A DNA stretch of 36,721 nucleotides, taken from the IMG/VR virus record IMGVR_UViG_3300024265_000139, positions 1 to 36,721 of that record, one strand, 5' to 3'. Made by a program: the position numbers and the translations under genes. This stretch comes from a virus. Each line of letters opens with the position of its first letter. Within the stretch, counting starts at the first letter, position 1. The notes under the pieces are model-generated. The model searched no databases. It was not told where the DNA came from and was given only the letters and a program-made list of their open reading frames with translations. This document shows positions 2,891-35,931 of this stretch, one piece after another.

Positions 2891-3135
2891 AGTACCGTAA
2901 GTCACCCGTAAGTTACCCATAAGTTCCACACTTGTTGCCCACTTGTTGCACACTTGTTACCCACTAAGCACCCGTAAGTTATCTATTAAGTATCTATTAA
3001 GCACCCATAAGTTACCCGTAAGTAACACACTTCTTACCCACTTCCTGCATACTTCCAGCACACTTATTGCACACAAAGTACCTTATGAGTACCTATGAGC
3101 ATCCACAACAAGCCCTAAGAGCATCCTTAAAGTAT
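2891..3135. repeat. array of about 22 degenerate 11-bp repeats (iteron-like)
   Basis: This stretch reads as consecutive units of 10-13 bp, mostly 11, variants of AGTTACCCGTA, AGCACCCATA, TTGCACACTTG and AGTACCTATG. The period equals about one helical turn, so the conserved parts face the same side of the DNA. A unit of 11 is not a multiple of three, and stops occur in the frames, so this is not coding repeat. Iterons for an initiator protein, a bending site or a packaging/control element all fit. Unit boundaries were set by eye. Confidence 0.75.
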
Positions 3136-3186
3136 GGAAAAACAAAGGTGCTACTTGCTCCCTCCTAATGTTAAAAATATCTACAC

Positions 3187-3270
3187 CTAGATCTTAAGGT
3201 CTATAAGATCTTAAGATCTAGACCTTAAGACCTAGACCTTAAGAACAGACCTAAGAACAGACCTAAAAAA
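3187..3270. repeat. nested palindromes built from AGATCTTAAG / AGGTCTTAAG units
   Basis: CTAGATCTTAAG at 3187-3198 is matched by its exact reverse complement at 3210-3221 (12-bp arms, 11-nt loop). CTTAAGGTCTA at 3193-3203 also pairs with TAGACCTTAAG at 3219-3229. Further GACCTTAAG and ACAGACCTAAGA direct copies continue to about 3270, then A-rich sequence. Several alternative cruciforms can form. Together with the adjacent 11-bp array this resembles a replication origin or a repressor-binding cluster. Confidence 0.75.
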
Positions 3271-4772: not shown

Positions 4773-5741
4773 ATGCAAACTAATATCAAAGTAACAGATT
4801 ACCTTTTGGTTGCCATTACTCCATTATGCTGGGCTACTGATGTAGTTCTAGCTCGTGGAGTTGTAGGAATAATCCCTCCGTTTAGTTTGGCTTTTTGGAG
4901 ATGGTTTGTAGCCTTTCTAGTTTTATTACCTTTTGCTTTTTCTCATATTAGAAGAGATTTAGATGAGATAAAACGAACGTGGAAGCTTCTGTTTTTACTT
5001 TCTATTTTAGGTATTTCAGTATTTATTTCGTTGATTTATACAGCTGTGCAAACAACTACGGCTATTAACGTTGCGTTGATTCAGACGGCTATGCCTGTTG
5101 CGATAGCTATAAGCTGCTATATTCTTTACAAAGAAAAGACTTCTGTATTGCAAGGATCATGTCTAGCTGTTTGTTGTCTAGGAGTTTGTTTTGTTGTTTT
5201 ACAAGGAAAGTTATCTAATATTTTTGGAGTTACTTTTGTGCTTGGCGATCTTTTGATGCTTATAGCCACATTGATGTTTGGAATGTACTCAGCTCTTCTT
5301 CAAAAAAAGGCTCCTAAGCTTTCTCCATTGAGTATGCTTAGCGTGTTATCAGGGCTTGGAGCTTTAGTATTGCTACCTGCTCATGCCTTTGAAGTTTTTG
5401 TTGGAGGAGGATTTGATGTAACTCTTAACGTTGTTTCTAGAATTATGTATGCAGCAATCTTCCCCGCTATAGTGGCGTACTTTTGTTGGATGAGGGGGGT
5501 TTCTACAATCGGAGCTAAGAGGACAGGGATATTTATTAATTTATTACCAGTGTTTGCTTCTATCTTAGCCATTGTGTTTTTAGGAGAAGTCTTTAGATGG
5601 TTCCATTTAGTTGGGATGTGCTTGATAGTTTCTGGGATGCTTGCGTTTAATAAGTTCGAGGTTGATGTTGTTGATGTTGAGGAAAAGGCTATACAGCCTA
5701 CCGGTGATCGTAAGGATTACTGTTCATTTGGTGGTGAATAA
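4773..5741 (+). CDS. EamA / drug-metabolite transporter (DMT) family permease
   Basis: The 322-residue protein has about ten hydrophobic segments in two five-helix halves, the standard EamA duplicate layout. It has the FWRW motif in helix 2, a TAVQTTTAINVALIQTAMPV helix 4, and the matching FINLLPVFASILAIVFLGE in the second half. Family members export or exchange amino acids, nucleotide derivatives or S-adenosylmethionine across the inner membrane. Carriage on a phage genome is uncommon and suggests a host-derived auxiliary gene. The C-terminal tail of about 30 residues is acidic and cytosolic. The family call is strong; the substrate cannot be read from sequence. Confidence 0.93.
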   Translation: MQTNIKVTDYLLVAITPLCWATDVVLARGVVGIIPPFSLAFWRWFVAFLVLLPFAFSHIRRDLDEIKRTWKLLFLLSILGISVFISLIYTAVQTTTAINVALIQTAMPVAIAISCYILYKEKTSVLQGSCLAVCCLGVCFVVLQGKLSNIFGVTFVLGDLLMLIATLMFGMYSALLQKKAPKLSPLSMLSVLSGLGALVLLPAHAFEVFVGGGFDVTLNVVSRIMYAAIFPAIVAYFCWMRGVSTIGAKRTGIFINLLPVFASILAIVFLGEVFRWFHLVGMCLIVSGMLAFNKFEVDVVDVEEKAIQPTGDRKDYCSFGGE

Positions 5742-8461: not shown

Positions 8462-8863
8462 ATGCATTTTGGAGATAGACTAAAACTACTAAGAGAACGA
8501 AAAGGCGTATCGCTCAGGACAGCAGGTAAAGCAACTGATATGAGCTGCCAGTACCTGTGGTCATTGGAGCATTCATCAAACAAAAGAATTCCTGTGCCTG
8601 AAAAACTTAGAAAACTTTCTAGATATTATTCAGTCCCTGTGGAAGACTTATTAGTTTCTGCAGGGTATTTGCAAGATCCTATGGATCCTGCTGAAGGCAG
8701 AATGTTTTCGTACGATAAAAGAGTTTCTATGGCTTTCGAGCATGTGATTAATGATCCACGATTCCCTCGAGGAGAAGATCTTAGCTCTGAGACTACTCCG
8801 TTTGAAGCAAAGGTTTATATTATAGAGTTGTATCAAAGAGTTACAGGACAAAAGTTGTTATGA
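8462..8863 (+). CDS. XRE/Cro-type helix-turn-helix protein coupled to the terminase gene
   Basis: The first 65 residues form a lambda-repressor-like HTH: GDRLKLLRERKGVSLRTAGK, then AGKATDMSCQYLWSLEHSSN and a third helix ending VPVEDLLVSAGYL. The C-terminal 65 residues are acidic and helical and may dimerise. Its stop overlaps the terminase start as ATGA (8860-8863), so it is made together with the packaging motor. It could be an autoregulator of the late operon acting at the dyad at 7141-7166, or a DNA-recognition subunit of the terminase. The HTH call is firm, the role inferred. Confidence 0.85.
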   Translation: MHFGDRLKLLRERKGVSLRTAGKATDMSCQYLWSLEHSSNKRIPVPEKLRKLSRYYSVPVEDLLVSAGYLQDPMDPAEGRMFSYDKRVSMAFEHVINDPRFPRGEDLSSETTPFEAKVYIIELYQRVTGQKLL

Positions 8864-9621
8864 ACCCTGCAAATGCTAGGGACGGAATGAGCTTGGCTTT
8901 AGATCCAGCTCTATTTATGGAGAAAGTATTTGGAATAGAACCAGATGATTGGCAAAAGAAGTTATTAAGAGATGCCCCTAGCAAGGTTCTATTGCTGTGT
9001 TCACGACAAGCTGGAAAGTCTACTGTAAGTGCTGTTCTAGCGTTGTATTATGCTGTGTTCTATCCGGACTCGTTGATATTGATTATCTCTAGATCTTTTA
9101 GGCAATCAGAGGAGCTTTTCAGGAAAGTTAAAGGTGGGATTTCTTACGTTACCAATAACGGTTTGGTTGGGATGGAGCATGAGACGCAGAGAAGCTTGAA
9201 CTTGAGTAACGGTAGTCGTATTTTATCTTTACCCGGCAGACAGGAAACAGTTAGGGCGTATTCTAAAGTATCTTATTTGATTATAGATGAGGCTTCTCAA
9301 GTTCCAGATGATTTATATAGCGCTGTCCGGCCCATGCTTGCAGTGTCAAAGGGGAATATCATCGCCATGACTACGCCTTATGGCAAAAGGGGTTGGTTTT
9401 ACAACTCGTGGAAAGGGACTAGCGATTGGTATAGAGTCAAGATTACTGCTTACCAATGCCCTAGAATAAGTGATGAGTTTATAAGGAATGAGGTTGAAGA
9501 AGTTGGGGATTGGTGGGTTAAGCAAGAATATTTCTGTGAGTTTGTCGATGCTGAGAACCAACTCTTTTCATATGATTCTTTAGTCGACGCTGTAGATAGT
9601 AAGCTGTTTTGCTGGGCATAA
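8860..9621 (+). CDS. terminase large subunit, ATPase domain only (split terminase)
   Basis: The 253-residue protein is the N-terminal motor half of TerL. It shows an adenine-binding DDWQ (residues 29-32), Walker A SRQAGKST (48-55), Walker B LIIDE (140-144) and the coupling motif MTTPYGKRGWF. It closes with EYFCEFVDAENQLFSYDSL, the segment that normally leads into the nuclease domain, then stops. Ordinary TerL proteins continue for another 200 residues; here the nuclease half is encoded separately at 9911-10534. All motor motifs are intact, so it is probably active and assembles with the nuclease protein in trans. Confidence 0.92.
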   Translation: MNPANARDGMSLALDPALFMEKVFGIEPDDWQKKLLRDAPSKVLLLCSRQAGKSTVSAVLALYYAVFYPDSLILIISRSFRQSEELFRKVKGGISYVTNNGLVGMEHETQRSLNLSNGSRILSLPGRQETVRAYSKVSYLIIDEASQVPDDLYSAVRPMLAVSKGNIIAMTTPYGKRGWFYNSWKGTSDWYRVKITAYQCPRISDEFIRNEVEEVGDWWVKQEYFCEFVDAENQLFSYDSLVDAVDSKLFCWA

Positions 9622-9680: not shown

Positions 9681-9914
9681 GTGGACGCATATCATATGAG
9701 GATCGTCAATTTGGCTTTTGAGTATGCTTGTACTGATCGTAGCTTTTACTATGGGATAAACTTAAAAAGGAAATTGAACGGAAGCTTTGGAGACTTTGAG
9801 AAGAAGATTAAAGCTCTCAGTTATTACGAGAGGGTAAAAGGGGTTAACCTTTTGTCTCATGACAGTCTGTTTGAGGCTAGGAAAAAGGCAGCATCTGTCT
9901 CTGTCTCCTTATGA
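9681..9914 (+). CDS. small unknown protein between the two terminase halves
   Basis: This 77-residue product starts at GTG 9681 behind a GAGGAAG ribosome site. It is helical and basic (NLKRKLNGSFGDFEKKIKAL) with several aromatic residues and no homing-endonuclease motif (no HNH, LAGLIDADG or GIY-YIG signature). Its stop overlaps the start of the nuclease gene as ATGA (9911-9914), so the two are coupled. It may be a linker or assembly factor holding the split terminase together, or a remnant of the insertion that split the gene. Confidence 0.65.
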   Translation: MDAYHMRIVNLAFEYACTDRSFYYGINLKRKLNGSFGDFEKKIKALSYYERVKGVNLLSHDSLFEARKKAASVSVSL

Positions 9915-10534
9915 GTCTTTCTCGTCCAAGTCAAGTTAGGTACATACTGGGGCTTGATTTGGGGCAGCAAAATGACTACTCAGTATTGAGCGTGTTCAAT
10001 GTTAAGTTCAATAGTAGCAACAGGCCAATTTATGAGATGCCTTACTTGGCAAGGTTTAATTTAAAAACAAGTTACGTTGATATTGTGGATGAAGTTATTG
10101 ACATTATTAGCAAGTATAACTTATCTTTGAACTATACTTTAATCGTTGATTACACTGGCGTTGGACGGCCAGTTGTTGATTTATTTAGACAGAAACATTT
10201 GAACCCTGTTGCCCTTAGCATTACCGGAGGGGCTAAGACAAACTGGGTTACTAAAACAGAGGTAAATGTTCCCAAAAAAGATATAGTCACTTATTTACAA
10301 CTTGTATTGCAAAATAAGCGGATAGCAATAGCACATGATTTACCTTTGCTGAGAACATTGACACAAGAATTTTTGAGCTTCCAATTAAAAATTAGGAATA
10401 ATTCTATGTCAGTTTCTAGTACATATGGTGGTGCCTATGGTGTAAATGACGATATAGTTATGTCAATGGGAATAGCGATTTGGTTGGTAGAATACCACAG
10501 CAGGCGTAGATTGTTTGCGGTAGGTGGCAGATAA
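9911..10534 (+). CDS. terminase large subunit, RNase H-like nuclease domain (split terminase)
   Basis: The 207-residue protein matches the C-terminal half of TerL: ILGLDLGQQNDYSVLSV with the first catalytic Asp near residue 16, a second acidic motif in LIVDYTGVGRPVVDLF, and the third in GVNDDIVMSMGIAIW. These are the three metal-binding acids of the terminase RNase H-fold nuclease that cuts concatemers. The N-terminus begins right where the domain boundary falls in a fused TerL. The TAA overlaps the portal ATG by one base (10534). Confidence 0.9.
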   Translation: MSLSRPSQVRYILGLDLGQQNDYSVLSVFNVKFNSSNRPIYEMPYLARFNLKTSYVDIVDEVIDIISKYNLSLNYTLIVDYTGVGRPVVDLFRQKHLNPVALSITGGAKTNWVTKTEVNVPKKDIVTYLQLVLQNKRIAIAHDLPLLRTLTQEFLSFQLKIRNNSMSVSSTYGGAYGVNDDIVMSMGIAIWLVEYHSRRRLFAVGGR

Positions 10535-22414: not shown

Positions 22415-22802
22415 TGTTGTTTCTTCTATTTTAGGGTTACCTTACAGATTGAATGGAGATATAGATAAGCCTAAAAAGGGGCTAGATTGCCTAGGGATAA
22501 TCCGTATCATTATGTTTAGGCTTCATGGAGTTATGATTGAAGAAGCTTCTCAAAAACAGTACGATTTGTATATGGATGCTCCTTTATTGGCGATGAGTAT
22601 TATATCGTTGTTTGTTCAGGATCACATGAGGCAAACGCTTTTTTCTAATATTGTAGCTGGAGACGTTATAGGAAAAGAAGAAACTGTTGGTGTATATACT
22701 GGCAATGGAAATTTTATATGTGCAGTAACAAATGATAAAGTTAGAATTTTGCCAGTTAAAAACTATTCTTTCGATAAGGCTTTTACATGGGCGGATCTGT
22801 AA
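22392..22802 (+). CDS. NlpC/P60-type tail peptidase domain, catalytic His apparently missing
   Basis: The 136-residue protein starts at GTG 22392. GLPYRLNGDIDKPKKGLDCL matches the NlpC/P60 N-terminal half with the catalytic Cys33. The second motif, which normally reads H-V-G-I-Y, is TVGVYTGNGNFICA with Thr98 at the His position, so hydrolysis of peptidoglycan stem peptides may be lost. The gene is in the standard slot between hub and J-like tip protein. It may now be structural. His45 and His78 exist but are in other positions. Confidence 0.8.
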   Translation: MKKEKLNDVVSSILGLPYRLNGDIDKPKKGLDCLGIIRIIMFRLHGVMIEEASQKQYDLYMDAPLLAMSIISLFVQDHMRQTLFSNIVAGDVIGKEETVGVYTGNGNFICAVTNDKVRILPVKNYSFDKAFTWADL

Positions 22803-25474
22803 AAAGTTTTTTAGGAGCATTGCTACCAGTTGCTGCTGCTTTATTAATTCCATTTTTACCAATTGCTGTTGCAGCTTTTGCCCCGCTTATTATTGGTGGA
22901 GCGGGTATAATAGGTGGCTTTTTAGCTAAGCAGGATTTGTCTGTTTCTGATTGGGATAGCCAGGCTACTGGCCCTGATAGAATGCAGGCTAATACTAAAA
23001 CTACACAAAGAACTATCCCAGTTGTTTATGGTCAAATGCGTGTTGGCTCTAATGATGTTTTTATGCAAATGGCTGGAACTGGTGCGGATAGAAGACTTTG
23101 GATTGTTAGCGCATTATGTGAAGGGGAGATAGAGGGGATTGCTCAGGAATCTGGAAAAGATCAAGTGTTTATAGATGGGCAATTAGTGTCGGATTTTAAT
23201 GAAGACCATTATGAAAGTGAAGGAACATTAGTTGAATACTGGTTTCATAGTGGGACTCCAACTCAAAGCGTTGATCCTAATATTTCTGCTGCAATCCCTA
23301 CCTATAATGACAATCTCCACGACATTGCTTATATGGTATATAAGATTAATCTGGTAGGAGGAATTTTTTCTGGAATTCCTAGACGTAAGGTTACTATTAA
23401 AGGACGTAAGGTTTTTGATTACAGAAATAGCACTACTTACTGGTCAGAAAACCCAGCTCTTTTGTTATATGACTTTATGGTAAATGATAGGTATGGAATG
23501 GCAATGGCTTCTTCTTCATTTGATATTCCTGCATGGCAACAAACAGCTAACTATTGTGAAGTCACAACTTATAAGTCTGCATGGCTTGTTGATTATGCAA
23601 TATCTAGCCAAATAAAAAGCCAGTCTGTAATCGACACGCTTTTAGCACATTTTAGAGGATCTATTACTTGGTTCGACGGTAAGATTGGATTACAATATTC
23701 TGACCTAAATGCTGAATCTATTGTAGCTCAGTTAGGCGATTCTGATATCGCGAGAGAAGAGAATGGAAGTGCGAGCCTATATGTTAGCCAGCCTGGTACA
23801 CACTCAACTCCAGATGGAGTTTTGGTTAAATATATTAACAAAGCAAGCTGGACTTTAGATGATGTTTATATAGGCGATACTACAGGGCAGATAAAACAGA
23901 TAGAGTTCCCCGGATTTACAGATAGGAAACTTGCCCTTGACATGGGCAATTACATGCTTGAACGTGAGCGATTAAACAGGTCTTTTAGTTTTAAAATGAG
24001 AGCTAACAATATAGCTCTTGAAGTAAACGATCTAATAGAAATTACATCGAGCGAAATTGGCCTGACGAGTAAACTCGCTAGGGTAATCCAGAGCGATATT
24101 CTAGGTGACGGACTGGTTCTTATTAATATTGTTTTGGAAGATGAAAAGCTTTACGATGGTGATTACAATCTTGATCCAGACTTAGTCTATTCTGTTGATA
24201 TAGCTGATCCGGCAGTGTCACCACCTCCGATCCAAGATTTTAGTGTTGAAGAACAAATTTATGTAAACAGAGGGCGTTCATTTGTGCGCCTTGTGACTAG
24301 TTTTGTCCCTCCGAGTGTCACGGCTTCTGGGAAAACATATCCGTGGTACTCTCATGTTGAAGTTTATGTTAGCTACGATGAAATAACTTGGAAGTTGTTG
24401 TTTACCGCTACAAATGGTTTTCAGATTGACCCTGTTGAAGAAGGGACTACTTATTATTTACGTATTTTTACAGTAACTATTTTTGGGCTTGTACAAAAAG
24501 ATCCACTAAAAGCTTTTACATACAACTATACGATTAAGGGCGTAGAAGCTATTGCTCCTCCTGCTCCTCTCGGGTTTAATGTTGTTGTAAATCCAGGATC
24601 TGTTGAGATTTATGGGACAGTTTCACAGTCACCTGATATAGACAGTTACGAATTTAGAATAGGAAATGCTTGGTTAAGTAATCTATGGCGTGATGCAGTT
24701 TTTCTAACTGCAAAATCAAAACCTACTGTTTCTTTTTCTGGAGTAAAGCCTGGATCATTTTCTTTCTGGTTTGATTCTAAGGGCAAGAACGATCTTTATA
24801 GTGGTTCTCCTCTACAGGTTGATGTGACTATGGAAGATCCACCGCCATTCCATTATGTGGAAACAGTTGAATCTGTTGACTATTCGACCGGAACTCACGA
24901 CAATACAGAAACAGTTGTAGAACAAAGTCTTTTGTCATTAAGATGTGCACATACTGGCGGAATTCTATCTGGTACGTATACTTCTCCAGTTATGGATACT
25001 AAACATTACCTATTCGATGTAGGCAGTATTGTCCCGTTGCTTATTGCTATCTTGCCAGTTGGTTTTGGTGTTAATGTGGCTGGATCTACATGGGAAGATT
25101 TTGCTCCTACTCCAACTGTTTGGAATGATATCGCTCCAAGTGGGGAGACTTGGGTAGATATAGTTGGTGATAGTTTTAGCTCTCCAAAGTTATCAATTTC
25201 TGCTGAATATAGCGATAGCCCAGCTGGCCCGTGGGGTAGTACAAAGGCAACTAAGCTAGAGCTTTTGACGGCGCTTATACCACAAAGGTATATTAAAGTA
25301 ATTTATTCTTTAGAAGACTCTACTAGCACTAGTAGACTTGTTGTTGCTCCTTCTACCTTAAAAACGTATATCCGTTACGATAAGTATATTTATATTGAGT
25401 CTGCCGTATGTCAACTTGCTAATGTATACGCTTTTTTAGATAGCATTGGAGGCACACAGGGAGATCAGCAATAA
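22787..25474 (+). CDS. tail tip protein, J-like (host specificity / central fibre)
   Basis: The 895-residue protein has a hydrophobic Gly/Ala-rich N-terminus (LLPVAAALLIPFLPIAVAAF), then the J-type start: TQRTIPVVYGQMRVG, WIVSALCEGEIEGI and DFMVNDRYGMA. Residues about 470-690 look like fibronectin-type-III or other beta domains (VEVYVSYDEITWK), and the C-terminus is another beta region. It forms the tip that contacts the cell and passes the tape measure. Overlaps the peptidase gene by 16 bp. Length is in the usual range for this family (smaller than lambda J, 1132). Confidence 0.88.
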   Translation: MGGSVKSFLGALLPVAAALLIPFLPIAVAAFAPLIIGGAGIIGGFLAKQDLSVSDWDSQATGPDRMQANTKTTQRTIPVVYGQMRVGSNDVFMQMAGTGADRRLWIVSALCEGEIEGIAQESGKDQVFIDGQLVSDFNEDHYESEGTLVEYWFHSGTPTQSVDPNISAAIPTYNDNLHDIAYMVYKINLVGGIFSGIPRRKVTIKGRKVFDYRNSTTYWSENPALLLYDFMVNDRYGMAMASSSFDIPAWQQTANYCEVTTYKSAWLVDYAISSQIKSQSVIDTLLAHFRGSITWFDGKIGLQYSDLNAESIVAQLGDSDIAREENGSASLYVSQPGTHSTPDGVLVKYINKASWTLDDVYIGDTTGQIKQIEFPGFTDRKLALDMGNYMLERERLNRSFSFKMRANNIALEVNDLIEITSSEIGLTSKLARVIQSDILGDGLVLINIVLEDEKLYDGDYNLDPDLVYSVDIADPAVSPPPIQDFSVEEQIYVNRGRSFVRLVTSFVPPSVTASGKTYPWYSHVEVYVSYDEITWKLLFTATNGFQIDPVEEGTTYYLRIFTVTIFGLVQKDPLKAFTYNYTIKGVEAIAPPAPLGFNVVVNPGSVEIYGTVSQSPDIDSYEFRIGNAWLSNLWRDAVFLTAKSKPTVSFSGVKPGSFSFWFDSKGKNDLYSGSPLQVDVTMEDPPPFHYVETVESVDYSTGTHDNTETVVEQSLLSLRCAHTGGILSGTYTSPVMDTKHYLFDVGSIVPLLIAILPVGFGVNVAGSTWEDFAPTPTVWNDIAPSGETWVDIVGDSFSSPKLSISAEYSDSPAGPWGSTKATKLELLTALIPQRYIKVIYSLEDSTSTSRLVVAPSTLKTYIRYDKYIYIESAVCQLANVYAFLDSIGGTQGDQQ

Positions 25475-25488
25475 CAGAAGAGGAATGT

Positions 25489-25785
25489 ATGGAATATTTT
25501 CCTGAGATATCCGTAAAGGGTATAAAATTAAATCGGTCGCTTATTTGGAATTTTTTCGATATTAAAAATCTAATTTCTAGAGTAACTGCGTTGTATGTAG
25601 CTAATTATACTTTACCTTATGACGATTATTTGTATGAGGGGGTGTGCCCTTTCTGTACAGCATTTGAAGGATCTCCTTTTTTTGTTAAGACTTTTAAAGT
25701 GTGTGTAGAAAAACAGTTATTTGCGTGCAATAGTTGTGGAATAACTGGTAATACTGAAACTTTTATGCGAATGTTAGGATATTAG
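25489..25785 (+). CDS. stand-alone DnaG-type (CHC2-like) zinc-finger protein
   Basis: In this 98-residue protein the C-terminal half matches the primase zinc-binding domain: LISRVTALYV, then EGVCPFC (C53, C56), a strand region (SPFFVKTFKV), and QLFACNSCGITGNTETF (C80, C83). DnaG has CxxH-x17-CxxC; here the second ligand is Cys and the loop is longer, giving CxxC-x23-CxxC. No TOPRIM or helicase part follows. It lies between the tail tip and a fibre gene, odd for a primase element. The zinc-ribbon call is good; what it does in the tail module is unknown. Confidence 0.75.
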   Translation: MEYFPEISVKGIKLNRSLIWNFFDIKNLISRVTALYVANYTLPYDDYLYEGVCPFCTAFEGSPFFVKTFKVCVEKQLFACNSCGITGNTETFMRMLGY

Positions 25786-25787
25786 GA

Positions 25788-26546
25788 ATGGCGCAAAATT
25801 ATAACGAAAATACTTATGACGCTAGTACCACAAATGTTCAAACTCTTCAATCTAGGATAGAAAACAATTTTGCAGCATTATTATCAAAGTTTTCTGGCCC
25901 ATCTGCTCCATCAGGCTCAGGGTTTCCTATTGGAGGATGTTGGTGGTTAGACACTGTTAATAGAAAGTTATTTCTACGTCATGACCAAAACACTAGTTGG
26001 CTTGAGTTATTTGATTTTGTTACTAGCCAAGTGCCTATAGCTAATGGCCAAATACAAAGTTCTAATATAAACGATTCTGCAAGAAAAGGATCTATAGTAC
26101 AAGACCAAGCTATATCGCCGACTTCATGTTCTATTAGAGCGACACAGATCCCTGTAATTTCTATTTTGCCATCTTCTACAGTAACAAGTAACGAGATAGT
26201 AAAGTCAACGTTAACAAGCTCTTGGACTACTTTTGACCAAACTAAAATCTATATATCAGACCCTGTTATTGAACTATACATGTTAGGAAGAATTAAGGTT
26301 TTTAACAGCATACACACAGTAAGCTGTAGGTTTATAGTAGGAGGTGTTGTTTCTACAGCGAGTGAAGAGGTTACAGGAACAACTTCATATACATGGACAT
26401 CTGTTGAATCGGGAGCTAATCTCTCTTCCCTTGTTAGTGGGAATTGGTACGATCTCGAAATTCAACTTAATAGAGTCGGTGGAACAAATGCCCAGGCAGG
26501 TATGCAAGGATTTAATTTTAGAATAGTTAATAGCGTAACGGCTTAG
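25788..26546 (+). CDS. tail fibre or tip-associated protein
   Basis: The 252-residue product starts with a helical MAQNYNENTYDAS segment and a phage fibre motif, GGCWWLDTVNRKLFLRHDQN, of the type found in many receptor-binding or fibre proteins (G-x-W-x-DT-x5-K-R). The rest is a Ser/Thr-rich beta domain (VSCRFIVGGVVSTASEEVTG). It is encoded two bases after the zinc-finger gene. Likely a side fibre or collar; the receptor is not visible. Confidence 0.7.
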   Translation: MAQNYNENTYDASTTNVQTLQSRIENNFAALLSKFSGPSAPSGSGFPIGGCWWLDTVNRKLFLRHDQNTSWLELFDFVTSQVPIANGQIQSSNINDSARKGSIVQDQAISPTSCSIRATQIPVISILPSSTVTSNEIVKSTLTSSWTTFDQTKIYISDPVIELYMLGRIKVFNSIHTVSCRFIVGGVVSTASEEVTGTTSYTWTSVESGANLSSLVSGNWYDLEIQLNRVGGTNAQAGMQGFNFRIVNSVTA

Positions 26547-26667: not shown

Positions 26668-28889
26668 ATGTCAACTATATTTACTGATATTGAGGGTATA
26701 CTTTCTGGTGTAGTATTTATTACATCGTTAGAAGATAATGAAATAAGATTAAGCGGAACAGCTACGGCATTATCTGCTGCCGTGCAGTTACTCTACACAC
26801 TAGTTACGATCTCCCGCTGGCTCATTGCACTTCTCTTGCTTATACATTTAGTGCATATAAGATGCTTAGTAAGTTTGGGTCTTCTTCTGCCAATGCTCTT
26901 GGTAATGTTTTAGGCTCTGATCTTTCTCCTGAGCATATGTTGAGAGCAGATGCAGCTCAGCTAGCAGAAATGACGGATTCTGTACTTGACGCAAGAAGAG
27001 AATTCCACGCAACAGCCGATGCTCTTTCTGCTTCTAGTGTTGATCTTGACGCTACAATGTCTTTAAAATATGAAGCTATATCGCTTCCTTATGCCGAAGC
27101 TAATGTTACACACGGGTTTCCTCTAACAAGTAATGCTAAGGCTCTATCAAGTGTCGATGATACAGCGCTTGATACATATAAATATGTTACAAGTACAGCT
27201 TCAGCATTAAGCTTTTTTACAAGAGCGATTATTTCAGTCGAAGGAAGATTAACATCGACTGCTAATGAGTTGGCTAGCACTGCTGGGTCTTATCTTGGGA
27301 AACAAGTCTCACTAGATTCTGAAGCAAAATGTTTAGGTGTCGCTTTTGGGCATTTTGGGTATGGAGAGTTTATATCTGCTACTACTGCAACTCAACTGTC
27401 TTCATTATTTGGGAATATAACGGAAGCATTCGCACTAAAATGTTCAGCTAACGCTTTATCGGAATCCAGTTCTTTAAAGCTAACAGTATTCATTCCGCTT
27501 CCGGTTTTAGCATCACAGTTGTCGTCAGTTTCTGTTTTCCTAGACATTGAGCCGTTTATGCACGCTACTGCTAAGTGCTTGCCGAGCAGTTCTGCATCTG
27601 GAATTACAGCTATAACTAGACTTTCAGCTAACGCAGAGGGATTGCAATATACAGAAGGTCTTTTAGCTAGCTCTGCAGCTATGAGAAGCACTCAATCTAC
27701 TCAGTTAGCTTATACTTTTTCAAAGGCTACTATACAGCTTACAATTGACGGTTATTTAAATGAGTTAACATATGTTTTTGCAAGGATAAAGCCTAGGCAT
27801 CCATTAAAATCTGAGGCAGCACAGTTAGCAAAAGCAGTTGTTACACAGATAGCTTTTCAATCTAAATTATTATCTGAAGCCATATCTCTGACTTTTATCG
27901 AAACAGCTAGCCTTCTTCTTTATCGTCCTCTGACGTCTAACCCTACTTCTGAACCTAATACATATAGCTTCGCTACTGAGATTGATTTTATGCACGATTC
28001 TCAAGCAGCGCAGTTATCGGATGCAATCTCTAAGATAACTAGCTTTGTAAATCTTGGATCTGAGGGTATAGCGATAGCAGATGCTGTAAGCGATATAACT
28101 GTAAGCAGTAAACTTATATCAGATGCTGCCCAACTGGCTACTTCTGCTCCAGTGTTGACAGAAAGAATAAGATTCAGTGCAGATATAGTTGAGATTGCTA
28201 CAGTTGCTGGCACTTCTATTAAGCCAACAAAAAGACTTCCTGCTGCTGAGGTTACTCAGTTGGCCTATGCTTTTGCGGATATCCAAAATAATTGGACAGG
28301 ACTTGTAGCTAGGACAACAACTCAGCTTTCTGAATCGTCTGTTGTTAAAATAGCTACTCGAGGGATTCTTAGATCTACTGGCACTGCCCTTGCTACTGTT
28401 TTTGGCACAAGACTTATTCCTAATGTTACGTTAGATACTACTCTATCTCAGTTGGCATCATTAGCTGGAGATATGGGTGCTCATAGGGACTTCACTACAG
28501 AGATTGTACAACTCTCTTATGTGTCAAGCCTAGTTGACTTATTTAAAACTTTATCGTCTGACTTGACTGCATTGAGCGATGCTCAGTCAGCGTTATCAAT
28601 TTCAAGTAAGAGAATGGTTTCAGAAATTGTACAATTAGCTGACTCAACCGCAGGAGCTACGTGTATAAAGAAATTGTCATCAGAAGCTACTTCTCTAGGC
28701 GCTGTTTTTGGTCACTTATACCACGACGTAATACTTGTGGCAGATGTGACTCAGCTCGCTTTTGTTTCAGCAAAGCTACAAAGCCAGATGAAAGCGAGTG
28801 CGACGCAACTGTCTGTAACTCAGGGTAGGATAAGGGGTTCTACTTTTGGAAGGGTTTATAGACCTACTTTGGAATTGTATACTGGATAA
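26668..28889 (+). CDS. giant repeat fibre: about 34 degenerate ~21-residue repeats, interrupted by one frame change
   Basis: Starting at ATG 26668, the frame gives one repeat unit (IRLSGTATALSAAVQL). Between about 26800 and 26815 the same repeat pattern moves to the -1 frame (LPLAHCTSLAYTFSAYKM) and continues to 28889. Units are 18-23 residues with consensus L-x-S-x-A-x-Q/A-L-A/S followed by about 12 variable residues, e.g. RADAAQLAEM, TSTASALSFF, VADVTQLAFV. The downstream frame's first ATG (26862) has no SD. One-nucleotide indel, programmed shift or sequencing error are all possible. The pattern suggests a long beta-solenoid or helical stalk. No known family recognised. It sits among fibre genes. 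Confidence 0.75.
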
Positions 28890-28924: not shown

Positions 28925-29344
28925 ATGGATGGATATAGTGTATATCTTCAAGAAGAAGTACATAAGTATATTTTTGGCCAGTCACAAGCGACGATGCCAG
29001 CAACTTTTTATATAGCGTTGTCTACTTCACCTTTTAACCCAGATGACACTGGTATTGCTGAGCCTTCTGGTGGAGATTATGCAAGAAAAGATGCTCCAAA
29101 AGCTATTTTTGCAGCTCCTGGAACTTCTGGATATATAACAACTACGCAGAATACATCAGATATAACTTTTGCTGAATCAACAGCTCTTTGGGGTGAGATA
29201 CAAGCATTTGGTGCTTATAGCGCTGTTACTGGTGGTGATTTAATTTTTGGCGGAGGGTTAGACACTTTTAAAACTATAGAAACTGCTACTATCGCAGTAT
29301 TTTCTACTGGCGATCTAAAATTGTCTACAAAAAATACTCCTTAG
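28925..29344 (+). CDS. phage tail fibre-associated protein (ALSTxPF family)
   Basis: The 139-residue protein reads ATFYIALSTSPFNPDDTG, then AEPSGGDYARK, a central ITTTQNTSDITFAEST, WGEIQAFGAYSA and GGDLIFGGGL. This order (ALSTxP - AEPSGGxYAR - ITF - WG - GGxL) is a common small virion-associated protein of tail fibre regions. Fold is all-beta. Its SD (GAAAGGA) and a hairpin downstream mark it as its own translation unit. Confidence 0.75.
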   Translation: MDGYSVYLQEEVHKYIFGQSQATMPATFYIALSTSPFNPDDTGIAEPSGGDYARKDAPKAIFAAPGTSGYITTTQNTSDITFAESTALWGEIQAFGAYSAVTGGDLIFGGGLDTFKTIETATIAVFSTGDLKLSTKNTP

Positions 29345-29417: not shown

Positions 29418-29756
29418 ATGAGTTTTCCAACTATTACTGTATATGGTAATTCTGAGAATGTTCAAAGCTTGAGGCTCCTAGACAAAGGCGAACCAGTAAA
29501 CTTGTCTAGTGTTACAAGGGTTCTTCTAGAGCTTGACGACCGAACAGAGGTTGACTCTGACATTTCTCCTAGTCTGTTCGATTGGATAAACCCTGGGACA
29601 TTAGGAGTAGTTTGGTTTTTTTTAGGTAGGAAATTTTGGAGTACCAAGATATATTATGCAAAAGTAATAGTATATGATGATCTAAATTATGAAGGTATTT
29701 TTTGGGGATACTTAAGGATAAGAGCTATTGAGAACACAGTTCCTGTCGGTCAATAA
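29418..29756 (+). CDS. small beta-rich fibre-region protein, function unknown
   Basis: The 112-residue protein (ITVYGNSENVQSLRLLDKGE, then VTRVLLELDD and KIYYAKVIVYDD) shows an alternating strand pattern reminiscent of the N-terminal attachment domains of baseplate/fibre proteins. No signal peptide. It opens the last structural cassette, before three fibre-like genes. Function inferred only from neighbours. Confidence 0.55.
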   Translation: MSFPTITVYGNSENVQSLRLLDKGEPVNLSSVTRVLLELDDRTEVDSDISPSLFDWINPGTLGVVWFFLGRKFWSTKIYYAKVIVYDDLNYEGIFWGYLRIRAIENTVPVGQ

Positions 29757-29768
29757 ATAGGATAGATT

Positions 29769-30809
29769 ATGGGCAAGACAATTAGACAATTAGAGCGTGT
29801 GCTAGAAGTTACAGCTGTACATATACTTGCCGTTAGTCGGGAAGATACTGACAAAGCATTCAAGGTTACTATCGACGCTTTGAAAGCATATATATTAGAT
29901 GCTGATGGATACTCCCCAGCATTTACAGATTTGACTGTTGATACATTAAATTCTGAAGGTTCTCCTATTGAGATATACGTAAATAATACTATTTTATCTG
30001 CACTTATAGATGAGAATAGGATAGGAGCAAATCGTTTTACTAGCAGCGACGTTATTACAACTTATATTGCACTAGGAAGTTCATTGGATTTAGTAGTAGG
30101 AGAGTTTGTTGTAGCTTCTTTTTCTGGTACCCAGCTACTGACTGATTCTCTTAAAAGTTTAACTACAAGTGTAACCCGTATTGATTTTGCTAGTTCTTTT
30201 ATTTTTCTGTATCCATCAACATATCCGGATCCAATTATTGGAATATCTGCAGACAATAGCACTTTGGACATAGATAGCGTAGGAGGAATTTCAGAGCCAT
30301 ATAAAATTGATCTTCTAAATACAGATATTACAGTTTACGCAGATACTAATGAAGCTATTATAATAAAAGACGACGGCCACGTTGAGCTTCCAGGCAGGCA
30401 TGTTATTGTTGCTTGCACTAACGATGTAAGTGTTCCACAAACATATCCTACTGTATACACTCCTCTTAAGCCAGATGTAGTAATAATTGATACAACTAAC
30501 ACGTATAACCCAGCAGATGGAACATTTACATGGCCTGTCGCTGGTGTAGAATTAGAATATTATGTTCAAGTGACTGCAGCCTTATCATCTTTTATAAATA
30601 GCACTTCCTGGATTTTTAAGCTATCTTTTCAAGGGGAAGGGGAATCAGAAACTCGCCGTCACAATGGATCGGCTGGTACATATCGCCGGACAGATTATAC
30701 GTGGGTTGGCTTCACATCGACAGATGACGTAGGAGCTTCTGTACAGTTTCGGCCATTCCTAGAGATCACTGCAGAATACATTTTTCTTATGATAAGAGCT
30801 GTATCATGA
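29769..30809 (+). CDS. tail fibre with C-terminal C1q-like domain (first paralog)
   Basis: The 346-residue product is closely laid out like its neighbour at 30876: an N-terminal TIRQLERVLEVTAVHILAVS, a KAFKVTIDALKAYIL helix, a long repetitive strand region, and a C-terminal beta domain beginning NPADGTFTWPVAGVELEYYV. This FxxPxAGxYxF-like pattern is typical of C1q/TNF-like jelly rolls, often the receptor-binding head. The two copies keep the N-terminal attachment domain and diverge in the middle. Likely a trimeric host-binding fibre. Confidence 0.75.
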   Translation: MGKTIRQLERVLEVTAVHILAVSREDTDKAFKVTIDALKAYILDADGYSPAFTDLTVDTLNSEGSPIEIYVNNTILSALIDENRIGANRFTSSDVITTYIALGSSLDLVVGEFVVASFSGTQLLTDSLKSLTTSVTRIDFASSFIFLYPSTYPDPIIGISADNSTLDIDSVGGISEPYKIDLLNTDITVYADTNEAIIIKDDGHVELPGRHVIVACTNDVSVPQTYPTVYTPLKPDVVIIDTTNTYNPADGTFTWPVAGVELEYYVQVTAALSSFINSTSWIFKLSFQGEGESETRRHNGSAGTYRRTDYTWVGFTSTDDVGASVQFRPFLEITAEYIFLMIRAVS

Positions 30810-30875
30810 CAAGACAATCGTTAATCAAAGAACGTAGTAACAGTTTATTAAATATATAGATAGTGGGGCAATAAT

Positions 30876-31904
30876 ATGTCACAAACAATAAGAGAGTTAG
30901 CATCTGTACCTTCAGTTGTACCTCAACATCTGTTTGTAGTTAGTAGTGAAAACACTGCTTTCGCATTCAAAACTAATATAAACAGTATTAAAGATTACAT
31001 CTTGACCAGTGGTGGCACTATAGCAGTGTTCTCGGAACTTAACACTCCCGCGATTAGGACTTCAAATTCTACTTTGCCAGTTTATGTAAATGCAAGCGTT
31101 ATTTCACTACATTTTATTGGTGGGGGTCTTTCTATTGATAGATTTCAAGGTAGAACAACAGACTCTACATCAATAGATCTTGGAAGCACAATAGATTTTA
31201 GCATATCGGATACACTTGTTGCCCGTATTGATAGCGGTAGTTTTTTATGTGATACGATTAGTGGGTACACATCATCATCGTCGTACATAGAACTGGGAAC
31301 TGATATTGTTTTTAATGTAGGTGGGGTTCCTGTTTTTTCGGTTACTTCTTCTGGTATTAAGGCTGACGTAATTGAAGGCACAACAGTCGATACAAATAAA
31401 ATTGATTTCAACGGGACAGACTCTAATCTTGAAATTATTTGCAACAACCTTGTGAGTATATATTGTAAGCCAACTGGAGAGGTTTTTTTCCCTTTGAGGC
31501 TTGTTGTTAGGGCACATACTAGTACAAATATCGGTTACATTGACACTTGGCAGCCACTACTTTTTGATACAGAAGATCTAGATACCCAAAACATATACAA
31601 TCCTGCAACTAGCGAGTTTACAATGCCACGTGCAGGAATGAACGTTTTGTTTTCACTACAGGTCAACTTTCTTGGACAGTCATTTACATCAGCCGATTAT
31701 GTAAGGATTAGCTATAGAGAGACCACAGGGATATATGGCCCAGCCAGGACTCAGATGTATATGCAAACAGCTACATACAGTCCAACTTTTCAGTTTACTG
31801 GAGTATTTGTATCTACACTTACTCCGGATATGTATTTCCAAATATTGGCAACAGTAAATTTTACCCTTATGTCTTCTTACATGACAATGAGTATTCTACC
31901 GTAA
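30876..31904 (+). CDS. tail fibre with C-terminal C1q-like domain (second paralog)
   Basis: The 342-residue product is paralogous to the preceding gene: TIRELASVPSVVPQHLFVVS, AFAFKTNINSIKDYIL, and a C-terminal domain starting YNPATSEFTMPRAGMNVLF. Middle regions differ considerably. Tandem fibre copies with a common base and variable tips suggest alternative receptor specificities. The order attachment domain, shaft, C1q-like head is inferred from the pattern. Confidence 0.75.
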   Translation: MSQTIRELASVPSVVPQHLFVVSSENTAFAFKTNINSIKDYILTSGGTIAVFSELNTPAIRTSNSTLPVYVNASVISLHFIGGGLSIDRFQGRTTDSTSIDLGSTIDFSISDTLVARIDSGSFLCDTISGYTSSSSYIELGTDIVFNVGGVPVFSVTSSGIKADVIEGTTVDTNKIDFNGTDSNLEIICNNLVSIYCKPTGEVFFPLRLVVRAHTSTNIGYIDTWQPLLFDTEDLDTQNIYNPATSEFTMPRAGMNVLFSLQVNFLGQSFTSADYVRISYRETTGIYGPARTQMYMQTATYSPTFQFTGVFVSTLTPDMYFQILATVNFTLMSSYMTMSILP

Positions 31905-31926
31905 CAATAACCAATAGGTAAAACAA

Positions 31927-32343
31927 ATGAGTTTTTGTAAAGTTAGCGTTTCTACAGATAAGTCAATACAAATTGATTCAGAGACTAAAATAGCTTTTGA
32001 TAATAAAATAAGCGATCCATTTTCTGAATTTGATACCATCACTAATAAATTTACTACAGTAACAGCAGGAGATTATTTAATTGTTTGTAGTGTTAATTGG
32101 CTTGTAGAATCAGGAAAGTATTGGAGTGAGAATCAATATGATAAAGTTATAATAAATCTTAATGGTAATGCTCTTGCTTTCGCATTAACTTGGCATACAA
32201 CAATGTTTTCAGCTACCACCACACAAGTAGTTACTCTTGTGAATATGTCCGTAGGTGATTATATAGAAGCATATGTTAGACACGATAATTCATTTCCGTT
32301 GTATGTTGGGACCTCAAGCTATATGTCTATTAAACAGTTGTAA
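31927..32343 (+). CDS. free C1q-like receptor-binding domain protein
   Basis: The 138-residue protein is a single C1q-like domain without shaft: DTITNKFTTVTAGDYLIVCS near residue 40, KVIINLNGNALAFAL, and VGDYIEAYVRH with a final YMSIKQL strand. These match the closing domains of the two preceding fibres. It could be a separate tip protein or a spare head for exchange. It is the last rightward gene, before the shared terminator. Confidence 0.7.
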   Translation: MSFCKVSVSTDKSIQIDSETKIAFDNKISDPFSEFDTITNKFTTVTAGDYLIVCSVNWLVESGKYWSENQYDKVIINLNGNALAFALTWHTTMFSATTTQVVTLVNMSVGDYIEAYVRHDNSFPLYVGTSSYMSIKQL

Positions 32344-35229: not shown

Positions 35230-35931
35230 TTATTTCTTTATTTGTCTTCTTCTTTGACCAGCATTAGCCATCATACCTGGTACAACGGTCCCTTTAAGTT
35301 TAGCTACTTTTTTACACACTTTGTCTTCTCTTTTTAGCGCGCATCTCAGTTTGCTTTTATACTCTGAACATGCGTTAGGGTTGTCTAGTGGGCATCCAGT
35401 GTATTCGTCTTTTTTACCTAACATAATGCTTTTTTCTCCATTTAAAATTGTTGAAATAACGTTCTCATCATCACTGTCTTCTTCTAACAAAGGCATAGCA
35501 AAAACAAGTTTATTTTTTTTAAAAACTGGAGTATTTGGAGGATTTGATATAGCTATCTCTATACCCTTTGGTAGTTGTGAATATGCTGAAAACTGTAGCG
35601 CAGTATTATCTCTAAATACACAAACTGCTTTAACTTCTCCCCAGTCATCTGATACTTCATTGAACGTAATTTGCTTTTTATTTGTAGCTGATATAACAAG
35701 GCATTTATCTATTTGTTTTAATTCTATTATCCAATCATCTCCATTAGTTTTTGCTCTTTTATAACTCTTAGCGGTTGGCTCATCGGATTGTGTTGTTATT
35801 ATTGAAACATCATTTCGTAATAGTCCTATGTAAAAGTTGTAATTTTCTGCGTCTTCTGGAGGGTTAAAAATTGCTGAATATGCAGAGCTTATTGTATAAA
35901 TACTTAATCCATGGTTTTGAAATACTTTCAT
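35230..35931 (-). CDS. unknown early protein with C-terminal Cys cluster
   Basis: The 233-residue protein begins with a beta-rich part (YNFYIGLLRNDVSIITTQSD, WIIELKQIDKCLVIS). It ends with TGCPLDNPNACSEYKSKLRC plus a nearby KVCKK, so four or five Cys residues within 35 residues could bind a metal. The last residues are very basic (GQRRRQIKK), suggesting nucleic-acid contact. An AGAGG SD lies upstream. It is between the Gp157-like and RecT-like genes, so a role in DNA metabolism is likely. No family recognised. Confidence 0.7.
   Translation of the reverse strand: MKVFQNHGLSIYTISSAYSAIFNPPEDAENYNFYIGLLRNDVSIITTQSDEPTAKSYKRAKTNGDDWIIELKQIDKCLVISATNKKQITFNEVSDDWGEVKAVCVFRDNTALQFSAYSQLPKGIEIAISNPPNTPVFKKNKLVFAMPLLEEDSDDENVISTILNGEKSIMLGKKDEYTGCPLDNPNACSEYKSKLRCALKREDKVCKKVAKLKGTVVPGMMANAGQRRRQIKK

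Follow-up and report, generated by a model that had tools for sequence, protein, structure and literature searches.

Analysis of the window, a 36,721 nucleotide stretch of viral DNA (IMG/VR record IMGVR_UViG_3300024265_000139, positions 1 to 36,721), identified an array of degenerate tandem repeats encoded at 26814..28886 on the plus strand. Judged from its sequence, the array is real and old, and belongs, as a diverged form, to a common class of repeat proteins that lacks a name and whose members are paired with gp80-like fibrils. On balance, we think it probable that the array forms the rigid, beta-rich stalk of a host-binding fibre in an adhesion module like that of GP4 fibre I, where it would act together with the gp80-like fibril. 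The repeat gene would then encode a long stalk of some 34 units, each contributing about one structural turn or hairpin, which would work with the fibril subunit encoded directly downstream at 28925..29344, and stalk and fibril would keep a receptor-binding part, for which the C1q-like proteins encoded at 29769..32343 are perhaps candidates, away from the tail tip. We infer the virion location, the stalk role, the beta fold and the wiring of these parts, and the word fibre for the array protein comes from its gene neighbourhood.

The array was delineated by iterated position-specific segmentation, which found 33 units of 20–21 residues in frame 3, with a non-repeat tail (GSTFGRVYRPTLELYTG) at the end. 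One extra unit (RLSGTATALSAAV) lies in frame 1 at about 26746–26790, for a total of 34 units, the approximate number given in the first-pass annotation. The segmentation score was 605.9, compared to 232 ± 43 (maximum 291) for 40 shuffled sequences to which the identical procedure was applied, and residue autocorrelation peaked at lags of 20, 21, 41, 62, 82 and 103. The unit consensus is L-x-[SA]-[ETD]-A-x-[QA]-L-[AS]-x-V-[FS]-[GSA]-x-[IL]-5x, the last five residues being variable. Leu occupies position 8 in 30 of the 33 units and position 1 in 18; Ala is found at position 5 in 19 units, and either Ser or Ala at position 3 in 24. Small or hydrophobic residues fill the odd positions of the unit, and the even positions are mostly polar, with the exception of Leu-8.

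Each unit had been proposed to form either a beta-solenoid turn or a helical hairpin; the alternating small/hydrophobic pattern supports a putative beta structure and suits the hairpin less well. The composition of the array protein (13.5% Ala, 12% Leu and 13.6% Ser) would be in keeping with a flexible or alpha-helical spacer, as would the AlphaFold2 (AF2) model of the full window protein, a single-sequence model that was mostly helical. However, that model was of low confidence (pLDDT 33), the conservation of Leu-8, Ala-5 and Gly/Ser-13 in 33 old units together with the alternating pattern points to a fixed fold, and Val, Thr and Gly are abundant in the related arrays described below, all of which make a spacer unlikely.

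Structure prediction was also applied to a relative of the array. For six units of the array at locus L084, AF2 with a seven-row alignment returned an all-beta model, a beta-solenoid, with a pLDDT of 82 and a pTM of 0.68, the five models ranging from 60 to 82. This model superposed on single-chain parallel beta-helices (1rwr, Z 11.1, rmsd 2.4 Å over 116 residues). A Foldseek comparison of the model with the PDB found nothing at an E value below 1e-3, and its matches in BFVD were weak, including proteins of Bcep22 and CRP-5. AF2 has been reported to turn random 20-residue repeats into beta-solenoids in 36 of 50 models (Pratt et al., PMC11795689), and because of this bias the L084 solenoid is only weak evidence for the fold. 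The parallel beta-helices of FHA (1rwr) and of ice-binding proteins have turns of 20–21 residues, the length of the window unit, although neither is related to the window array in sequence and model confidence for such regular repeats is untrustworthy.

Many phage fibres are trimers, and the array could instead be a homotrimeric beta fibre shaft, either a triple-stranded beta-helix or a beta-spiral, to which each chain contributes one rung per unit. The poor monomer model of the full window protein is consistent with such an arrangement, and a threefold axis could accommodate the small residues at odd positions (L, S/G, A, A/Q, A/S, V, G, I/L). Set against this, the 20–21 residue unit has the turn length of a single-chain beta-solenoid, and it was on single-chain helices that the L084 model, itself subject to the AF2 bias, superposed. 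We regard a trimeric shaft as a doubtful, if plausible, alternative.

Comparison of codons between units indicated that the array has a long history. Where units have identical residues, the codon is also the same in 35.4% of 1,851 pairs, compared to the 33.4% expected from the codon usage of the gene, with slightly higher sharing between adjacent units (42.2% of 116 pairs), and no DNA-level tandem repeat was detectable within the array. Synonymous sites are near saturation while Leu-8 and other key residues have been kept, which shows that the array is old and that constraint acted on it in the past. This agrees with the initial proposal that it is old and kept by selection.

The interval 26668..28889 had been described as a single protein. 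Its tandem units are genuine, but it is not one ORF, as the start lies in frame 1 and the array in frame 3. The frame 1 ORF (26668..26913, plus strand, 81 aa) encodes the N-terminus and the first unit and has AAGGG 6 nt before its ATG; position 26668 is likely the true start of the repeat gene. The repeat profile matched this ORF weakly and without significance, at 7.8 bits. The frame 3 ORF (26862..28889 from ATG to stop, plus strand, 675 aa) is open from 26742, and its first usable ATG is at 26862. Three-frame translation placed the break from frame 1 to frame 3 at about 26771..26834, where the Leu-8 codons of the flanking units are separated by 65 nt, which is not a multiple of 3. This break matters because there is a plausible ribosome site at 26668 and none at the ATG at 26862. 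A slippery heptamer that would allow a programmed frameshift was sought in the overlap of the two frames and none was found, nor was a close relative found that could settle the matter. Possible causes of the break are an error of assembly, a genuine mutation, and a frameshift or other recoding event that escaped detection. The break may also imply that the protein is not translated as a single chain, which counts against the stalk explanation.

A more radical possibility is that the break ended the function of a decaying fibre gene and that the array is a relic. The separation of the start from the array and the lack of a slippery site fit this possibility. Nevertheless, we consider it highly improbable, as 675 codons are open and the consensus is intact to the end, such that any break would have to be very recent, and the break is accounted for equally well by a single-base error in the assembly of a metagenomic contig.

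Searches of the array against PHROGs, Pfam, NCBIfam and PDB sequences identified no named family above cut-off, and a tblastn search of 50,697 phage records and a plasmid collection produced no match. Protein-pattern searches found no close relative of the array in genome contigs; in viral contigs they found none of the array, the J protein, the portal or the adjacent 252-aa protein. A consensus-unit query returned chance matches only, and three contigs that were matched by a back-translated unit pattern proved to be unrelated. The claim that this is a novel fibre repeat consequently stands with respect to named families, but a repeat profile search matched unnamed arrays in uncultured phages. 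Nor is the repeat unique, as had been implied, since a period-20 repeat protein adjoining a gp80-like gene is common.

These related arrays were identified in 80 viral contigs gathered with an alignment of gp80-like proteins. A profile built from six window units was searched against all ORFs of the 80 loci and matched the array of L084 with an E value of 5e-10 and, more weakly, that of L073 (0.0022), with L058 and L021 under threshold. The L084 units are very regular (LxGTSAALSSVSGVLKKxxx). Scores were compared with those for column permutations of the target repeats, which preserve both composition and period. The window-unit profile scored 58.3 bits on L084 and 19.2 bits on L058, with none of 289 and none of 183 permutations as high, respectively; on L073 it scored 21.7 bits (1 of 181 permutations as high) and on L021 35.4 bits (2 of 300). 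In the reverse direction, an independent profile made from 39 units of L084, L037, L021 and L043 scored 46.1 bits on the window array, a value reached by none of 295 permutations and none of 294 shuffles. All five of these bit scores were obtained with null2, the HMMER composition correction, turned off, an appropriate setting when the decoys match the target in composition; turning it on lowered the score of the independent profile on the window to 3.6 bits, which nevertheless exceeded 294 of the 295 permutations. At the level of sequence profiles, the window array was thereby shown to be related to the L084, L021, L058 and L073 arrays beyond what composition and periodicity would produce.

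Direct profile tests of the window against the arrays of L043, L037, L088, L041 and L078 were not significant, and homology of the window array to those of L043, L088, L041, Phlyer and Slicko01 was unsupported. As the relation of the window profile to Slicko01, Phlyer, L043 and the L088/L041 type was not significant, only the period and the gene place are common to the window and these arrays. By contrast, the L084-type class has the 20-residue period of the window and the pattern L-x-G/S-x-A/S-x-A/Q-x-S/A-x-V-x-G-x-L/I in register with it. We assigned L084, L021, L058 and L073 to the period-20 class, with L037, L043, L088, L078 and others in a wider class; like the window array, these genes lie on the same strand as a gp80-like gene and adjoin it or are a few genes away. 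The window units are more diverged than those of their period-20 relatives, alternate between 20 and 21 residues and have Q-L at positions 7–8. The commonest downstream type has a TLEQLD segment at its N-terminus and a Trp-rich segment at its C-terminus, both of which are missing from the window array. In that type the N-terminal segment is conserved as TLEQLDxWGxxDALD, and L058, L073, L078, L045 and other loci have C-terminal Trp-rich tails composed of repeats of ~9–10 residues (WTxVxxGSEVWT).

The gene directly downstream of the array, on the same strand, encodes a 139-aa gp80-like protein (28925..29344) of the GP4 fibre I family (PF23140, 90.3 bits against a Pfam cut-off of 27; phrog_240), and the gp80-like profile matches chain a of PDB 8jou at 1e-21. 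In GP4, the gp80-like fibril joins the adhesin to the tail collar (PMC13243795). The clear family match to the fibre I protein of this podophage (gp80, PDB 8JOU) belongs to the neighbour and not to the repeat protein, and no PDB chain was matched in a sequence search with the repeats. A second, weak gp80-like match was present at 35230–35931 on the minus strand (24.0 bits, cut-off 27), far from the tail genes.

The pairing of the two kinds of gene was assessed in the 80 contigs, with a strong period signal defined as z above 6 at lags of 18–22 (nearly always 20). Of the genes directly downstream of a gp80-like gene, 40 of 72 carried period-20 repeats; immediately upstream the figure was 2 of 77, and among the remaining genes it was 12 of 496. 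The downstream association had an odds ratio of 50 (p 6e-31), in contigs that are not independent, being related to each other and selected by their gp80-like gene. The 42 flanking repeat proteins formed 16 groups at 40% identity, so the association does not reflect one clone. The window array is upstream of its gp80-like gene, whereas most contigs have the repeat gene downstream, and this counts against the stalk explanation for the window. The same gene order as in the window was seen in the two contigs with an upstream repeat gene, L021 and L037, and in the mycobacteriophage Phlyer, in which the gene for gp33, a minor tail protein with a period-20 array (z 9.3), immediately precedes that for the gp80-like gp34. 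Phlyer gp33 and the window protein have the period in common but no profile similarity, and gp33 has a C-terminal Gly-rich domain.

A comparable arrangement is known from phage LSH1, for which a 2026 structural study described a three-gene module of adhesin gp34, GP4-fibril-like gp35 and Ig-fold gp36 (PMC13243795). A long, badly predicted stretch of gp34 was left unexplained, which the authors suggested is maybe repetitive, and they named Alishewanella phage Slicko01 (OQ508956) as a relative of the module (PMC13243795). The Slicko01 protein WGH49683 (1,844 aa) has period-20 repeats at about residues 1000–1700 (z 10.9–13.6), and its gene adjoins a 107-aa gene, beyond which lies a weak gp80-like gene (E 0.037). 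Based on its size and neighbours, we infer that WGH49683 is the gp34 homologue, and repeats of the period-20 kind may explain the poorly predicted stretch of gp34.

The LSH1/Slicko01 module and the window both encode a long protein with repeats close to a GP4-fibril-like gene, although the window profile scored 0.0 bits on the Slicko01 repeats, no better than shuffles. LSH1 gp34 has a lyase-like N-terminal adhesin domain, whereas about 27 residues separate the start codon at 26668 from the first of the window repeats; Pfam gave no match to a lyase-like domain in the window, and none would fit before or within the array. A 112-aa protein (29418..29756, plus strand) is comparable in size and place to the Ig-like partner in this module. 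Its identity as an Ig-like protein was unsupported, as hhalign comparisons with the Slicko01, SP-15 and DSL-LC06 proteins were not significant. In DSL-LC06 a degenerate repeat-like protein (best lag 18, z 3.9) is encoded directly downstream of the gp80-like gene, as is SP-15 gp235 (L098:4413-5435), which has a repeat-like N-terminal stretch (best lag 14, z 5.4). The C-terminal part of gp235 is non-repeat and looks Ig-like by eye.

Period-20 repeat genes lie beside over half of the gp80-like genes that were sampled, and the class members tested had no Pfam match above cut-off, matched no solved structure and had only weak PHROG matches without function. We tentatively suggest that the period-20 proteins and gp80-like fibrils could constitute an undescribed class of adhesion stalk with its own fold, occurring in siphoviruses, podoviruses and myoviruses, of which the window protein would be one diverged example and whose repeats would account for the LSH1 gp34 stretch. 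Recognition of a single class would allow many hypothetical marine phage proteins to be annotated as candidate adhesion stalks, and would offer an answer to the point left open in the structural study of LSH1 (PMC13243795).

The surrounding tail genes have a lambda-like order and are far from those of cultured phages. The block comprises genes for a tape measure (18926), a DUF2460-like protein (21189), a gp84-like hub (21776), an NlpC/P60 protein (22392) and an 895-aa tail tip J-like protein (22787..25474, plus strand; phrog_31 1.9e-41, Phage-tail_3). Amid the tail genes is one for a 98-aa CHC2 zinc-ribbon-like protein (25489–25785; 24.8 bits, cut-off 24.9). Between the tail tip gene and the array, an orphan protein of 252 aa (25788..26546, plus strand) had no significant family in PHROGs or Pfam and no tblastn match. 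Downstream of the gp80-like gene, three consecutive plus-strand ORFs at 29769..32343 have weak C1q-like (jelly-roll) domains, with Pfam C1q E values of 0.014, 0.062 and 0.02, all below the Pfam cut-off. These are perhaps candidate, possibly alternative, receptor-binding tips.

Other features of the window were also recorded. The large terminase is apparently split into ORFs at 8860–9621 and 9911–10534, about 290 bp apart, with the ATPase half in the first of these (Pfam) and the nuclease-like half beginning near YILGLDLGQQNDYSVL; no Rfam intron matched at the split, and Rfam and tRNA scans were empty. An EamA-family transporter gene (4773–5741, 144 bits) is present in this phage contig, and exact-peptide patterns found no relatives of it in genome contigs. 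Short DNA tandem repeats occupy 2912–3264, in the gap between divergent gene blocks.
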